Made by a program: the position numbers and the translations under genes. A model generated the notes under the pieces. It saw nothing but the letters and a program-made list of their open reading frames with translations. It did not search any database and was not told the origin of the DNA. From Terriglobia bacterium (lineage in GTDB: Bacteria; Acidobacteriota; Terriglobia; Terriglobales; Acidobacteriaceae): 38,479 nucleotides of DNA. Shown here piece after piece: positions 19,988 to 26,666 of the stretch; the stretch's first letter is position 1, and every line of letters begins with the position of its first letter. Where the stretch lies: the NCBI GenBank assembly GCA_020073185.1, contig JAIQFT010000037.1, positions 1 through 38,479 on the forward strand. Direction: 5' to 3'.

Positions 19988-20899
19988 ATGGATTTCGATC
20001 AGCTGATCACCTTCATGGAAGTGGCCAAGCTCGGCAATTTCTCGCGCGCAGGGCAGAAGGTGTTCCGCTCGCAGTCGGCGGTCAGCGCGCAGATCCGTCA
20101 ACTGGAGATCGAATACGGCGAGAAGCTGCTGGATCGCGCCGGCAAGTCGGTCCGCCTCACCCCCGCCGGAAGCGTCCTGTTCGACTACGCCAAGCAGATG
20201 CTGGTCCTGCGTGACGAATCCTTGCGCGCCGTTGCCGACCAAGGCGCGACTCCGCGCGGCATCCTCGCCATCGGCGCCAACGAGGCCACCTGCCTCTACG
20301 TGCTGCCCGATGTCTTCGCCGAGTACTCGCGCCTGTACCCCTCGGTGCAGATCAATATCTATCGCAACTTCAGCCGCAAGATTTTGGAGCGCGTGGAAGA
20401 AGGCTCGCTGGATGTCGGCATCGTCACGCTGCCGGTGAAATCGCCCAGCCTCAAGGTGCAACTGATCTACCGCGATCGCCTCATGCTGATGGTCAGTGTG
20501 AACAGTCCGCTGGCGAAGCTCGACTCGGTTCCCATCTGCAAGCTCGCCGAGCAGGCTCTCATCTTCCCCAAGACCGGCTACACGCGCCAGGTGCTCGACA
20601 AGATTTTCCGCCCCTACCAGGCCACCATGCGCGTGGTGATGGAACTGCCCAGCGTGGGCATGATCAAGGGATTCGTCGCCACCGGGCTTGGCGTCTCCAT
20701 CATCAGCGCCAGCTTCGCCGCTCCGGAAGTGCGCTCCGGCGAAGTCAAGCTGCTCGAACTGGAGGACGTCGACCTGTGGCGCGAACTCGGGCTCGTCTAC
20801 CGCGCCGATCGCACCCTGCCGCGCGCCGCCACCGCCTTCGTTGAGCTCATCCAGAGCCGCACCCGCTTGCGCAGTAAAACCAAAGCCGTGCATGGCTGA
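19988..20899 (+). CDS. LysR-type transcriptional regulator
   Basis: A 303-residue DNA-binding regulator. The N-terminal winged helix-turn-helix (about 1-60) contains FSRAGQKVFRSQSAVSAQIRQLE, and the ligand-binding domain (about 90-295) resembles CysB/CbbR-type folds (ILAIGANEATCLYVLPDVF). It sits between gltBD and the ilv genes in the same orientation. A palindrome of LysR-box type and two direct GCTTATA repeats follow 42-79 bp after its stop, before the ilvD leader. It may therefore regulate ilv, gltBD or itself. The effector is unknown. Confidence 0.9.
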   Translation: MDFDQLITFMEVAKLGNFSRAGQKVFRSQSAVSAQIRQLEIEYGEKLLDRAGKSVRLTPAGSVLFDYAKQMLVLRDESLRAVADQGATPRGILAIGANEATCLYVLPDVFAEYSRLYPSVQINIYRNFSRKILERVEEGSLDVGIVTLPVKSPSLKVQLIYRDRLMLMVSVNSPLAKLDSVPICKLAEQALIFPKTGYTRQVLDKIFRPYQATMRVVMELPSVGMIKGFVATGLGVSIISASFAAPEVRSGEVKLLELEDVDLWRELGLVYRADRTLPRAATAFVELIQSRTRLRSKTKAVHG

Positions 20900-20940
20900 G
20901 CGCGCACCGCCCGCAAGCAAAAATATCGATAATAACAATC

Positions 20941-20978
20941 GCTTATATTAATAAGAGAATTTCAAGGATTGGCTTATA
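20941..20978 (+). promoter_or_regulatory. LysR-type box and direct repeats upstream of the ilv leader
   Basis: CTTAT-ATTA-ATAAG (20942-20955) is a palindrome of the T-N11-A type bound by LysR proteins. GCTTATA occurs at 20941-20947 and again at 20972-20978, 31 bp apart, about three helical turns on the same face. TATTAT at 20988-20993 could be a -10 box. The region is A+T-rich against a G+C-rich background, as expected for a regulated promoter. Confidence 0.45.
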
Positions 20979-21021
20979 CTTTCCCGGTATTATTTGGCCC
21001 TCGTTTCTTGGGAACCCAGGC

Positions 21022-21150
21022 ATGAGTTGCGCAAGAGATTCAAGCCCGCTGGCGTCGGTTGTGACCACAACATCCCGGGTCGCGACCGCCGGGGTACATC
21101 TGCTCCTCGTTAGAGTGCTCCTCCTTGTGGGGAGCGTACGGGGCGGATGA
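21022..21150 (+). CDS. Branched-chain amino-acid attenuator leader peptide
   Basis: A 42-codon reading frame (ATG 21022, TGA 21148) ahead of ilvD. It contains 7 Leu and 8 Val codons. Codons 27-36 read LLLVRVLLLV, nine of ten being Leu or Val. There is no Ile, but a VVTTT run occurs at codons 13-17. The stop codon lies inside GGATGATG (21145-21152), which is complementary to the 5' arm of the terminator at 21182-21189. This is the arrangement of a ribosome-mediated attenuator. A small pause hairpin (GCTCC 21117-21121, GGAGC 21131-21135) covers the control codons. The peptide itself needs no function. Confidence 0.8.
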   Translation: MSCARDSSPLASVVTTTSRVATAGVHLLLVRVLLLVGSVRGG

Positions 21151-21178
21151 TGTAGCCAGCGCGATTTTCGAGCAGCGC

Positions 21179-21217
21179 GGCCATCATCCGAAAGGGATGA
21201 TGGCCTTCTTGGTTTTA
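21179..21217 (+). terminator. Attenuator terminator hairpin of the ilv genes
   Basis: GGCCATCATCC (21179-21189) and GGATGATGGCC (21195-21205) form a perfect 11-bp stem with loop GAAAG, followed by the T-rich TTCTTGGTTTTA. Its 5' arm can instead pair with GGATGATG at 21145-21152 at the end of the leader peptide. Ribosomes stalled at the Leu/Val codons leave that segment free and block the terminator. Ribosomes reaching the stop codon cover it and allow termination. Confidence 0.8.
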
Positions 21218-21244
21218 TCGACATTGTTGCGAGGCGCACGGCAA

Positions 21245-22957
21245 GTGAAAAACGAACCTCCCGGAAACGGGCACAGCGCGGCCAATCTCGACGCGGTGCT
21301 CAAACGGCACAGTTGGGCGATCACCGACGGACCCAGCCGCGCGCCGGCCCGCGCCATGCTGAAGGCGGTCGGCTTTGATGACGACAAGCTGCGCCGCCCG
21401 ATCATCGGCGTGGCCAACACCTGGATCGAGGTCGGCCCTTGCAACTTCCACCTGCGCCATCTCGCGGCACAAGTCAAGGCCGGTATCTACGCCGCCGGCG
21501 GCACCCCCATGGAGTTCAACACCGTCTCCATATCGGACGGAATCACCATGGGCACGGAAGGCATGCGCGCCTCGCTAGTCAGCCGCGAAGTGATCGCCGA
21601 CTCCATCGAGTTGGTCGCGCGCGGCAATCTTTTCGACGGGCTGGTGGTGCTCGTCGGCTGCGACAAGACCATCCCCGCCGCTGTGATGGCCCTGCTGCGC
21701 GTCGATGTCCCCGGGCTGGTGCTCTACGGCGGTTCCATCAGTCCCGGGAGTTTTCACGGCCACGATGTGACCATCCAGGACGTTTTCGAAGCGGTGGGTG
21801 CGCATGCTCGCGGCGCAATGAGCGAATCGGAGCTCTGTGCCCTGGAGAACAGCGCCTGTCCGGGCGCGGGCGCCTGCGGCGGCCAGTTCACCGCCAACAC
21901 CATGGCGCTGGTCATCGAGATGCTCGGCATCGCTCCCATGGGCGAGTCCAGCGTCCCCGCCGGCCATCCCGACAAAGACGTGTCGGCGCATCATGCCGGC
22001 GAACTCGTCATGCAACTGGTTCGGCAGGACCTCAAGCCCAGCCAGATCATCACCCGCGCAGCATTGGAAGACGCGATTGCCAGCGTGGCGGCCAGCGGCG
22101 GATCCACCAACGCCGTTCTGCATCTGCTCGCGATTGCGCAGGAAGCCGGGGTCGCGCTCGACATCGACGATTTCGACCGCATCAGCGCGCGTGTGCCGCT
22201 GCTCGCCGACCTGAAACCGGGCGGCCGTTTTGTCGCCACCGATCTCTACGAAGCCGGCGGTGTGCGCCTGCTCGCCAGCCGCCTGCGCGAAGTCGGGGTG
22301 CTTCATTGCGATCGCCCCACGGTTAGCGGCAGAAGCGTCGAGGAAGAAGCTGCCCAGGCGAAGGAGCAGCTTGGACAAGAGGTCGTGCGGCCCGCCTCCA
22401 ACCCGCTGCGCGCAAGTGGCGGGCTAGTCATCCTAAAGGGAAACCTGGCTCCGGAAGGCTGCGTGGTCAAAACCGCCGGTCATGAAACGAAATCCTATCG
22501 CGGCCCGGCGCAGGTCTTCGACAGCGAAGAGGCCGCCTTCTCCGCCGTGCAGCAGGGGCGGATCAAGGCGGGCGACGTGGTGGTCATCCGCTACGAAGGA
22601 CCGCGCGGCGGCCCCGGCATGCGTGAGATGCTCGCTGTCACCGCTGCGCTGGTCGGCGCGGGGCTCGGCGAATCGGTGGCGCTGCTCACCGACGGACGTT
22701 TCTCCGGCGCGACCCACGGATTGATGGCGGGACACGTCGCGCCCGAAGCCGCTTGTGGCGGACCGATCGGCGCGCTTCGTACCGGCGACATCGTGGAATT
22801 CGATATTCCTACGCGGCGCCTCGCGGTGGATCTCAGCGACGAGGAAATCAAGCAACGACTGGCAGCGTGGACTCCTCCTCCGCCGCGCTTCACCCGCGGC
22901 GTCATGGCAAAGTACGCCCGCCAGGTCTCTTCCGCCGCCGTCGGAGCAGTAACGTAG
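21245..22957 (+). CDS. ilvD: Dihydroxy-acid dehydratase
   Basis: A 570-residue iron-sulfur dehydratase, third step of Ile/Val synthesis, converting dihydroxy acids to 2-oxo acids. Family marks are DGPSRAPARAMLKAVGF, WIEVGPCNFHLR, C139 in GCDKTIP, C211 in GACGGQFTANTM, GGSTNAVLHLLAIA and the C-terminal GRFSGATHG. GTG at 21245 is chosen, because the frame upstream runs through the attenuator terminator and part of the leader. GTG gives the normal N-terminal length, with GAGG about 10 nt before. Control is by the attenuator just upstream and possibly by the LysR-type sites. It is the first gene of ilvD-ilvB-ilvN-ilvC. Confidence 0.94.
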   Translation: MKNEPPGNGHSAANLDAVLKRHSWAITDGPSRAPARAMLKAVGFDDDKLRRPIIGVANTWIEVGPCNFHLRHLAAQVKAGIYAAGGTPMEFNTVSISDGITMGTEGMRASLVSREVIADSIELVARGNLFDGLVVLVGCDKTIPAAVMALLRVDVPGLVLYGGSISPGSFHGHDVTIQDVFEAVGAHARGAMSESELCALENSACPGAGACGGQFTANTMALVIEMLGIAPMGESSVPAGHPDKDVSAHHAGELVMQLVRQDLKPSQIITRAALEDAIASVAASGGSTNAVLHLLAIAQEAGVALDIDDFDRISARVPLLADLKPGGRFVATDLYEAGGVRLLASRLREVGVLHCDRPTVSGRSVEEEAAQAKEQLGQEVVRPASNPLRASGGLVILKGNLAPEGCVVKTAGHETKSYRGPAQVFDSEEAAFSAVQQGRIKAGDVVVIRYEGPRGGPGMREMLAVTAALVGAGLGESVALLTDGRFSGATHGLMAGHVAPEAACGGPIGALRTGDIVEFDIPTRRLAVDLSDEEIKQRLAAWTPPPPRFTRGVMAKYARQVSSAAVGAVT

Positions 22958-23091: not shown

Positions 23092-24804
23092 ATGAAAAAG
23101 ACTGGTGCAGAAATTCTTTGGGAGTGCGTGAACCGCGAAGGCGTGACTCACGTCTTCGGCTATCCCGGCGGCGCCATCCTGCCCGCCTACGACGCGCTCG
23201 GCAAATTCCCCGGCATTCGCCACATCCTGGTGCGCCACGAGCAGGGCGCGACCCACATGGCCGACGGTTACGCACGCGCCAGCGGCCGGGTTGGCGTCGC
23301 CGTCGCCACCTCCGGCCCCGGCGCCACCAACATGGTCACCGGCATCGCCACCGCCATGTTGGATTCCTCTCCCATCGTCTGCATTACCGGACAGGTGGGC
23401 AGCCGGCTGATCGGCTCCGACGCCTTCCAGGAAATTGACATCACCGGCATCACCCTGCCCATCACCAAGCACAATTACCTCGTCACGCGTGCGGATGAAG
23501 TGGCCGGCGTGGTGGCCGAGGCGTTCCTGATCGCCCGCTCCGGCCGGCCGGGCCCGGTGCTGATTGACATCACCAAGGATGCGCAGCAATCCAGTTGCGA
23601 ATTCGATTGGGACGCCATTGCGCCGCCCGCGCATCCGGCGCGCCCCGACCGCCGCGCCGCGCCCGTGGAATACCGCCGTGCGCTCGAGCTCATCAACTCC
23701 GCGCAGCGCCCGCTGATCCTCGCCGGCCACGGCATTCTTCTCTCCGGGTCCTTTCCCCAGGTTCGCGAGCTGGTGGAGAAGGCAAGCATTCCGGTTGCCA
23801 TGACGCTGCTCGGCATCGGCGCCTTACCAGCTTCCCATCCGCTCAACCTCGGCATGATGGGCATGCACGGCGAGTCTTGGGTGAACACCGCCATCCAGGA
23901 AGCCGACCTGCTGATCGCGCTTGGCATGCGCTTCGACGACCGCGTTACCGGCAATCTGAAGACGTACGCGCCCACTGCCAAGAAGATTCACGTCGAGATC
24001 GATCCCGCCGAGGTCAACAAGAACGTCACGGTTGACGTGGCGCTGATCGGAGACCTGCGACCGGTCCTGCAGGAGTTGCTCCCGGAAGTCGCCGTGGGCG
24101 ATCGCGCCGAGTGGCTCGCGCACATTGCCGAACTCAAGGGCGAAGTCGCCGTCCGCGACATCCAGAACCTTCCCGACAACGGTCATCTGTACGCGGCGCA
24201 CGTGATTTCCGATCTCTGGCGCGAAACCCAAGGCACGGCGATCGTCGTCACCGACGTCGGCCAGCACCAGATGTGGGAGGCGCAGTACTACAAGCATGAT
24301 GAGCCGCATTCGCTGATCACCTCGGGCGGACTGGGCACCATGGGCTTCGCGCTGCCCGCCGCAATCGGCGCCAAGTTTGCGCGCCCCGAGGAAGAGGTGT
24401 GGGTCGTGGCCGGCGACGGCGGCTTCCAGATGACCATGTCCGAGCTCGCCACCGTCGCTCAGGAGGGTCTGGAACTCAAGGTGGCCATCATCAACAACGG
24501 CTACCTCGGCATGGTGCGCCAGTGGCAGGAGTTCTTTTACGACCGCCGCTACCACGCTACGCCACTGGTGAATCCCGATTTCGAAAAGCTCGCGCAGGCG
24601 TACGGCCTGCACGCCATGACCGTCAACCGTCGCTCGGAGGTGATTCCCGCGGTGCAGGCCGCGCGCTCGCACCGCGGGACCGCGGTCATCAACTTCTGCG
24701 TGGAGCAGGAAGACTCCGTTTTCCCCATGGTTCCCGCAGGCGCTTCGTTGGACCAGATGATCAGACGCCCCAGCCCCCTGGTTGAGGCTGCCACGGATGC
24801 CTAA
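23092..24804 (+). CDS. ilvB: Acetolactate synthase, large (catalytic) subunit
   Basis: A 570-residue thiamine-diphosphate enzyme, first common step of Val/Leu/Ile synthesis. Catalytic E50 lies in VRHEQGATHMADGYAR. The FAD/central domain has GMMGMHGESWVNTA. The TDP/Mg motif starts at about residue 441 (GDGGFQMTMSELATVAQ) and ends NNGYLGMVRQWQ. Complete length. A 134-bp gap after ilvD carries CAACGACTA-like repeats, and TCGACCAACGACTAT (23049-23063) recurs before ilvC. The ribosome site is weak. The ilvN gene overlaps its end. Confidence 0.95.
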   Translation: MKKTGAEILWECVNREGVTHVFGYPGGAILPAYDALGKFPGIRHILVRHEQGATHMADGYARASGRVGVAVATSGPGATNMVTGIATAMLDSSPIVCITGQVGSRLIGSDAFQEIDITGITLPITKHNYLVTRADEVAGVVAEAFLIARSGRPGPVLIDITKDAQQSSCEFDWDAIAPPAHPARPDRRAAPVEYRRALELINSAQRPLILAGHGILLSGSFPQVRELVEKASIPVAMTLLGIGALPASHPLNLGMMGMHGESWVNTAIQEADLLIALGMRFDDRVTGNLKTYAPTAKKIHVEIDPAEVNKNVTVDVALIGDLRPVLQELLPEVAVGDRAEWLAHIAELKGEVAVRDIQNLPDNGHLYAAHVISDLWRETQGTAIVVTDVGQHQMWEAQYYKHDEPHSLITSGGLGTMGFALPAAIGAKFARPEEEVWVVAGDGGFQMTMSELATVAQEGLELKVAIINNGYLGMVRQWQEFFYDRRYHATPLVNPDFEKLAQAYGLHAMTVNRRSEVIPAVQAARSHRGTAVINFCVEQEDSVFPMVPAGASLDQMIRRPSPLVEAATDA

Positions 24805-25357
24805 CATGATGAATACCTTTGTTGTCTACGTCGAAAATAAGCCTGGGGTGCTCAACCGGGTTGCCTCGCTGTTCCGCCGCCGCGGCTTCAACATCGAGTC
24901 GCTCACCGTCGGCCATACTGAGAAGAGCGGCATTTCGCGCATGACCATCGTGACCGACACGGATGCGGCGGGCACCTACCGCGTCGAGACCAACCTCTAC
25001 AAGCTGGCCAACGTGATCAGCGTGGAAAACATCACGGCCGCCCCCTCGGTCTGTCGTGAGTTGGCCATGATCAAGGTCGCCGCCGCCGGTGAGACCCGCA
25101 CCCAACTGATGCAGTTGGCCGGCGTCTTCCGCGCCCGCGTGGTGGACGTTGCGACCGCATCGCTCACCATCGAGATCACCGGCACGGAAGACAAGATCGA
25201 CGGCCTGCTGGAGGTGCTCCGCCATTACGGGATCATCGAGATGGTGCGCACCGGCCGCGTTGCCATGGCGCGCGGCGGCGGCAACGGCGCCAGCGTGGCG
25301 CTTCCGCCTCCCGCCAACCTGGAATCCGACGACGGCATGGTGGCCTTCTCGGTGTGA
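24797..25357 (+). CDS. ilvN: Acetolactate synthase, small (regulatory) subunit
   Basis: A 186-residue regulatory subunit that activates IlvB and gives feedback inhibition by valine. The N-terminal ACT domain (FVVYVENKPGVLNRVASLFRR, about 6-80) is followed by a C-terminal ACT-like half (LAMIKVAAAGETRTQLMQLA) and RTGRVAMARG. It is of the usual IlvH/IlvN size with a short Pro-rich tail. ATG at 24797 overlaps the ilvB stop by 8 nt (ATGCCTAA), the same overlap design as gltB-gltD. TTGAGG lies about 10 nt upstream. An earlier in-frame ATG at 24782 is less likely. Confidence 0.93.
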   Translation: MPNMMNTFVVYVENKPGVLNRVASLFRRRGFNIESLTVGHTEKSGISRMTIVTDTDAAGTYRVETNLYKLANVISVENITAAPSVCRELAMIKVAAAGETRTQLMQLAGVFRARVVDVATASLTIEITGTEDKIDGLLEVLRHYGIIEMVRTGRVAMARGGGNGASVALPPPANLESDDGMVAFSV

Positions 25358-25501: not shown

Positions 25502-25601
25502 GACGCGAAGAACTCGGGACTTGGCGCTTTAACCGCCGATGGGCGTTCGCGAACCGTTGCGACCAACGACCCTCGACCAACGACTATTTAGGAGAGACCA
25601 A

Positions 25602-26666
25602 ATGGCAAAGATCTACTACGACAACTCCGCCGACCTTTCTGCCATATGCAGAAGGAGGGTTGCAATCATCGGCTACGGTTCGCAAGGCCACGCCCACGCC
25701 TTAAACCTGCGCGACAGCGGAGTCGCGGTGCAGGTCGGCCTTCACCAGGGCAGCCGCTCGCGCGTCAAGGCGGAGCAGCACGATTTCAGGGTTCTCACCC
25801 CCGACCGCGTCGCCGACTGGGCCGACGTCATCATGATCGTCACTCCCGACACCGGCCAGCCTGCGCTCTATGCCTCTGCCATCGCACCCCATCTCTGCCG
25901 CGGCAAGATGCTGATGTTTGCTCACGGCTTCAATATCCACTTCAAGACCATTCAGCCGCCCGGCGACGTTGACGTCACTATGGTCGCCCCCAAAGCGCCC
26001 GGACACCGCGTCCGCGAGGTCTTCGTCGAAGGCGGCGGCACACCGGCATTGATGGCCGTCCATCAGGACGTTTCCGGCCAAGCGACCGCGCTCACCCTGT
26101 CCTACGCCAAGGCGCTCGGCTGCACCCGCGCCGGCGTGCTGGAGACCACCTTCGCCGAAGAAACCGAAACCGACCTCTTTGGCGAGCAGACGGTGTTGTG
26201 CGGAGGCGTCAGCGCGCTCATCAAGGCAGGCTTCGAAACTCTGGTGCAAGCCGGCTATCAGCCCGAGATCGCCTACTTCGAGTGCATGCACGAGCTGAAG
26301 CTGATTGTCGATCTCATCTATCGCGGCGGGCTTTCCTACATGCGCTACTCCGTCAGCGACACCGCTGAGCACGGTGACTACACCGGCGGTCCGCGCATCA
26401 TCACCGAGCAGACGCGGGCGGAAATGCGCCGCATCCTCGCCGAAATCCAGGACGGCACCTACGCCAACAAGTGGATCGCCGAAAACCAAGCGGGACGCCC
26501 GTGGTTCAACGCCACTCGCCGCCGCGAGCAGGACCAGTTGATCGAGCAGGTCGGCGCCAAACTGCGCAGCCTCATGCCCTTCCTCGACCCGATTGATGTG
26601 CGCGCGGAAACGCGGCAGGAGGAGTCCGTGCCCGCGCCACCGGCGGGAGTCACTGCCGCCGACTGA
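25602..26666 (+). CDS. ilvC: Ketol-acid reductoisomerase
   Basis: A 354-residue NAD(P)H-dependent enzyme, second step of Ile/Val synthesis (class I, short form). The Rossmann motif [19 protein letters not shown] starts near residue 19. The helical domain has [34 protein letters not shown] and [13 protein letters not shown] with the Mg-binding acids. ATG 25602 has GGAGAG 5 nt upstream, so a longer frame from 25539 is not used. The C-terminal tail after RSLMPF is about 25 residues, Pro/Ala-rich. A 244-bp gap with repeats separates it from ilvN, so it may have its own promoter. Confidence 0.95.

Follow-up and report, generated by a model that had tools for sequence, protein, structure and literature searches.

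A putative ribosome-mediated attenuator before ilvD in a Terriglobia bacterium and related leaders across the Acidobacteriota

The window (the whole stretch of 38,479 nucleotides that was analysed, from a Terriglobia bacterium of the Acidobacteriaceae) carries four genes for the synthesis of branched-chain amino acids (BCAA) on the forward strand: ilvD (dihydroxy-acid dehydratase, GTG start; 21245-22957; TIGR00110, 683.8 bits, cut-off 618.15), ilvB (acetolactate synthase large subunit; 23092-24804; TIGR00118, 722 bits, cut-off 538.35), ilvN (acetolactate synthase small subunit, listed from TTG, a provisional start; 24782-25357; TIGR00119, 179.6 bits, cut-off 56.9) and ilvC (ketol-acid reductoisomerase; 25539-26666; TIGR00465, 423.5 bits, cut-off 226.15). 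A LysR-type regulator gene (19988-20899) lies directly upstream in the same direction. The GTG start of ilvD, already proposed by an earlier sequence-only reading, is supported by comparison with relatives. The alternative, an in-frame ATG inside the terminator described below, was rejected because a 1-nt difference puts it out of frame in a congener (G001), and most matches in the family set in only at residues 14-22 of the protein as read from GTG.

Between the LysR gene and ilvD, also on the forward strand, is a leader peptide ORF of 42 codons (MSCARDSSPLASVVTTTSRVATAGVHLLLVRVLLLVGSVRGG; 21022-21150), with ATG at 21022 and a TGA stop at 21148-21150. Codons 27-36 (21100-21129; CTG CTC CTC GTT AGA GTG CTC CTC CTT GTG) translate as the putative control run LLLVRVLLLV, and six codons separate codon 36 from the stop; letters and coordinates of this frame, as first reported, were exact on rechecking. 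No other of the 484 short ORFs in the window (12-80 codons, both strands) has Ile, Leu or Val at 8 or more of 10 residues.

The leader stop lies in arm 2 (CGGATGATG..GCC.GCGC; 21144-21162), the 5′ side of an antiterminator predicted to pair with 21175-21190. The UGA falls within GGATGATGTAGCC, complementary to arm 3 (GGCCATCATCC; 21179-21189), and GGATGATG (21145-21152, including the stop) is complementary to CATCATCC (21182-21189). Arm 3 may serve either as the 3′ side of the antiterminator or as the 5′ side of a terminator hairpin (21179-21205), in which it forms 11 perfect pairs, around a GAAAG loop, with arm 4 (GGATGATGGCC; 21195-21205), nearly the same sequence as arm 2. A T-rich run (TTCTTGGTTTTAT; 21206-21218), interrupted by GG, follows directly 3′ of the stem. 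The sequence-only reading had described the stop within the arm that pairs with the 5′ side of the terminator, the perfect 11-bp stem and the T-rich run, all correct to the letter; the alternative pairing exists as it claimed, but its extent had been understated, as we find 16 pairs (9+3+4) between 21144-21162 and 21175-21190. Nowhere else in the window does a perfect stem reach 10 bp (loop 3-8) and have six or more T among the 13 bases that follow. A laxer terminator scan gave one site in the window against a shuffle mean of 1.0, no better than chance; what counts is therefore how long and how perfectly paired the stem is.

The LysR gene ends 279 nt before the hairpin and is co-directional with it, and the hairpin could thus be the ordinary terminator of that gene, with the BCAA-rich ORF a by-product of composition. 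Yet in 3000 dinucleotide shuffles of 20950-21245 a BCAA-dense ORF arose in two, the hairpin in none and both together in none, and the fold of the leader region is more stable than its own shuffles (z -3.23). Moreover, ilv, leu and aspartokinase/homoserine genes elsewhere are preceded by a core that matches this one, while the LysR neighbour was found upstream of ilvD in three congeners only among the examined ilvD loci with at least 300 nt of upstream sequence (at most 1.5 kb for many of them), and relatives, too, have a leader frame dense in BCAA codons. We regard termination of the LysR gene as a hardly credible explanation of the hairpin and, as this gene was seen in that place in the three congeners only, have left it out of the element. 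The upstream LysR-type regulator may control the ilv promoter. The AT-rich stretch between the LysR gene and the leader contains a palindrome (CTTATATTAATAAG; 20942-20955), and a block at 20958-20983 is conserved in the three congeners; just behind it, the window has a 4-nt gap with respect to both others. Scanning 20800-21400 for sigma-70-like promoters returned no site.

At the level of sequence, the locus combines a leader run, a terminator before the first structural gene, a mutually exclusive antiterminator and a stop within arm 2, and stands before the synthesis genes of the very amino acids that it would sense, all on the same strand. We consider it very probable, on anatomy, on conservation in relatives and on covariation of the helices in 75 relatives, that a ribosome-mediated transcription attenuator controls ilvD-ilvB-ilvN-ilvC, as the sequence-only reading had proposed. 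The leader would be translated by a ribosome while RNA polymerase transcribes it. A ribosome at the stop would, by its footprint, cover arm 2, and one stalled at the control codons would leave it uncovered. A shortage of charged Leu-tRNA or Val-tRNA would stall the ribosome at codons 27-36, and arm 2 would be free to pair with arm 3 as this emerges, so that no terminator forms and polymerase enters ilvD. With ample Leu and Val, the ribosome would reach the UGA and cover arm 2; arms 3 and 4 would pair and polymerase would stop near 21215. Without translation, the folded leader would also leave the terminator formed. We infer that the four genes form a single operon with its own start site, and that termination takes place in the cell and responds to Leu and Val.

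Folding predictions, in which the ribosome edges were our choice, gave -25.5 kcal/mol for the antiterminator in 21142-21192 (arm 4 absent), whereas the terminator hairpin by itself has -21.2. When the whole of 21142-21218 is folded at equilibrium the terminator wins (-33.0), even with arm 2 free, and the antiterminator would therefore have to form first and be kinetically trapped, as happens in attenuators already described. In the absence of a ribosome, arm 2 is predicted, for the window sequence only, to pair upstream (~21095-21101), and the terminator forms.

The same layout could in principle act by other means, either with hairpins that gate the access of ribosomes to ilvD or with Rho acting on an untranslated leader. 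For gating, the distance is unfavourable: 39 nt lie between the end of the hairpin and the GTG, so that the usual ribosome-binding distance is left uncovered. The T-rich run is imperfect, as might suit these alternatives, and Rho has been suggested for mycobacterial cys leaders with no visible terminator hairpin (PMC1262725); here, however, a stem with a T-rich tail recurs among the relatives' matches displayed. Control by translation or Rho instead of intrinsic termination thus seems very unlikely.

Attenuation at the intrinsic terminator is further supported by conservation before ilvD. Two congeners, G001 (86% identical DNA) and G002, keep the C-terminal half of the leader peptide, the stop within the arm, similar spacing and a hairpin before ilvD, although arm 2 of G002 is weaker (GGATGACCGGCC). 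Their leaders end in PLLLIRALLLAGSVRSG and PLLLITALLLTRSVDSG, respectively, and the equivalents of codons 27-36 read LLLIRALLLA in G001 and LLLITALLLT in G002. A Leu/Val run or an alternative pairing that relatives do not conserve had been named as grounds for rejecting the attenuator; the comparison with relatives gave no such refutation. The leader had also been described as free of Ile codons, which is true of the window but not of either congener, where ATT (Ile) aligns with codon 30; absence of Ile is therefore not genus-wide. In more distant Acidobacteria the parts follow one another in like manner: a BCAA-rich leader, GGATGA or GGGTGA, 30-40 nt, a hairpin and a T-rich tail. Distribution of the core is patchy: in the family search, 7 of the 30 ilvD loci with the best scores carry it, as do 5 of 80 named ilvD contigs (L035, L036, L037, L039 and L040, all labelled as acidobacterial); the ilvD loci L023 and L024 are without the core. 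L007, in which a BCAA-rich leader (VGVLLLIGVSVVLLITPVL) precedes a different hairpin, was treated as an analogue and excluded from the count. Outside the phylum, the verrucomicrobial loci L085, L087 and L113 have another attenuator-like layout before ilvD, with BCAA-rich ORFs (e.g. IVLITVVLAIL in L085), a GCCGCCC hairpin and a T-rich tail; a search of openly licensed papers found no literature on attenuators of Verrucomicrobia. In L109 (Deltaproteobacteria) a short ORF with LLVVVVVLIALIAL lies upstream of ilvD.

In an alignment of 13 ilvD leaders, 95.8% and 92.1% of cells are paired in the two helices. The terminator has three double-change cells (shuffles 0.5 +/- 0.6), the antiterminator has no double change, and invariant columns fall in the arms. 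A larger alignment of 75 full model matches, fitted to the terminator and not to the antiterminator, gave 96.4% of cells paired and 38 double-change cells in the terminator (shuffles 9.4 +/- 2.3), and 89.7% and 14 in the antiterminator (shuffles 3.8 +/- 1.7), kinship being ignored in both comparisons. The counts of pairs with a double change and of additional pair types were within the range of the shuffles, both for the terminator (145/500 and 295/500) and for the antiterminator (82/500 and 46/500). At two positions arms 2, 3 and 4 have changed in concert (AUA to GCG in 7/75, UAU to CGC in 4/75). Covariation across relatives, the check suggested at the outset, is thus seen for both helices in the set of 75, but not for the antiterminator in the 13 ilvD leaders.

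A covariance model (R1) built solely from the 13 ilvD leaders had matches with E<=0.01, some of them weak, in 73 of 300 family genomes and 71 of 396 phylum genomes. With a second model (R2) and a threshold of E<=1e-4, matches were found in 57 of the 396 phylum genomes, and in none of 30 genomes of other phyla, hand-picked from 80 ilvD loci; three of the 30 matched at 0.01 (best 0.002). In 72 of the 75 aligned loci a leader ORF of at least 12 codons ends in the arm-2 region, and 62 have the same UGA. The element is therefore one of a phylum-wide set, which lay out of view of the sequence-only reading.

From one operon to another the arms resemble each other in sequence beyond what base-pairing requires, as might be expected if the conserved core were an RNA that binds a ligand or protein (a riboswitch, ppGpp aptamer or T-box) and the ORF were incidental. 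However, no Rfam family matched the window or 15 related loci at gathering score, and a search of 20900-21300 with E values as high as 5 found nothing relevant (attenuator leaders, riboswitches, T-box). Invariant columns in the 13 ilvD leaders, as noted, lie within the pairing arms, and the sensor codons vary with the downstream gene. We consider a binding RNA highly implausible.

The genes behind the core were tabulated for 119 loci from 90 genomes and named from clusters of similar downstream ORFs: ilvD (19, three of them with pheA), ilvB (16), ilvB with ilvN (8), ilvN (2), leuA or cimA (16), ilvA (7), aspartokinase/homoserine dehydrogenase (15), pheA (3), LysR (3) and gltB (2), with 28 unclassified. 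One representative each of ilvB, leuA, cimA, aspartokinase, homoserine dehydrogenase, ilvA and cysG scored above the curated cut-off, the prephenate dehydratase representative was below model cut-offs, and ilvD, ilvN, LysR and gltB were assigned by blastx to genes of the window. Inspection by eye found no recognisable leader or amino-acid gene at 15 or more of these 119 loci.

Leader codons appear often to match the product of the downstream genes. Over 68 ilv/leu/cim loci, Ile, Leu and Val together reach a density of 0.358 in the leader frame, compared with 0.157 and 0.102 in the other two. The leader frame is strictly best in 60 of the 68 when the best ten residues are compared (p = 3e-8), a measure that is biased because stops often shorten the other frames, density being the fairer one. 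Leaders of leuA (nine) are rich in Leu (0.252, against 0.057 in cimA; p = 0.0004) and those of cimA (seven) in Ile (0.195, against 0.052 in leuA; p = 0.0004), with leuA told from cimA by protein starts and kinship ignored in both tests. Thr is higher in aspartokinase/homoserine leaders than in the BCAA class (p = 0.024), and Thr-rich leaders are clear in several of these loci, e.g. METMTTTTTTIGVDGRCG in L202; in this class the leader frame is not significantly above the other frames (8/15, p = 0.24). A comparison of Cys enrichment was dropped as evidence, being circular for loci picked for Cys.

Several small groups of loci carry the core in other settings. Cys-rich leaders were observed in a small class consisting of L178 (before cysG), L191, L217 and L220; in L217 the genes behind the leader encode a desampylase-like protein (below the model cut-off) and a shell protein of the family 2A encapsulins, and the first protein of L220 resembles, by eye, that of L217. 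A weak core match in L235 (G021) precedes a cysD-like ORF (sulphate adenylyltransferase subunit 2, by eye), and the Cys codons there are outside the UGA frame. The single Phe/Tyr-rich case, L225 (G576), has an FNNFSFYFYF leader followed by a prephenate dehydratase-like gene and a DAHP synthase-like ORF (by eye). In L148, L150, L182 and L206 a Leu-rich leader and core precede a short uncharacterised ORF (~70-95 residues), behind which ilvC (by eye) lies on the opposite strand. L151 and L186 have the core before glutamate synthase (gltB), with leader codons that do not indicate glutamate, and in L147, L156 and L166 a BCAA-rich leader and core stand before a LysR-type regulator gene.

The window genome itself contains a second strong core match (G000:C52:10734-10821) before ilvA, the downstream gene scoring as threonine ammonia-lyase, and the leader there ends in AMPIVARIISPPPSG, with Ile and Val codons. 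The Ile branch in this genome may thus have a switch of its own, and sensing may be shared out between the two leaders, one with Leu/Val codons for the common ilv genes and one containing Ile for the step specific to Ile.

The ilvB, ilvG and leu attenuators of Enterobacteria have the same mechanism and gene set in another phylum, a likeness of description and not of compared sequences. The mechanism is classical, and what would surprise a specialist is a shared core with exchangeable sensor codons. Placement before ilvD, which the sequence-only reading had taken to be distinctive here, is already known: a leucine-rich attenuator precedes ilvD in Staphylococcus aureus (PMC5794164), as does Rli60, with a 13-aa leader, in Listeria (PMC5864092), and both were examined with mutants and reporters. 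As far as these descriptions go, both resemble the window locus in having a BCAA-rich leader peptide and a choice between terminator and antiterminator before ilvD of an ilv operon, but they belong to Firmicutes and add control by CodY, the comparison being by description and not by sequence; the Rli60 leader of 13 aa also contrasts with a leader of 42 codons whose stop is inside the antiterminator arm. The ilvB-II motif/ilvBNC leader of Corynebacterium likewise has a BCAA-rich uORF before ilv genes and terminator and antiterminator stems, but its uORF has 15-17 residues and precedes ilvB, with 103 representatives in one genus (PMC10272879), whereas the acidobacterial cores are similar across the phylum and serve several amino acids. 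A conserved complementary triple corresponding to arms 2, 3 and 4 is reported for one amino acid in trp attenuators of Actinobacteria and Proteobacteria (PMC1262725), whereas here a similar triple accompanies leaders rich in Leu, Ile, Val, Thr or Cys, and one rich in Phe/Tyr.

One core common to sensors for different amino acids looks new. In the openly licensed literature, most subscription papers being outside this scope, we found no description of an acidobacterial leader-peptide attenuator, and Naville and Gautheret had an associated function for nearly none of the predicted acidobacterial attenuators (PMC2965389). The present analysis proposes a putative function for a set of predicted attenuators in this phylum and provides a searchable model. 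It is quite possible, although we lean slightly against it, that the acidobacterial leaders are one homologous attenuator family with the core GGAUGAUGG (stop)/GGCCAUCAUCC/GGAUGAUGGCC, copied between operons with only the leader codons changed (Leu, Val, Ile, Thr, Cys, Phe/Tyr), and that released leader RNA could pair with the nascent leaders of other operons and so couple pathways; such pairing in trans is conceivable, since leaders that occur together in a cell have arms that resemble and complement each other. With different sensor codons on similar cores, these loci offer a natural series for the evolution of attenuators, in which reuse of a working switch by recoding of its peptide may be set against building it anew for each operon.
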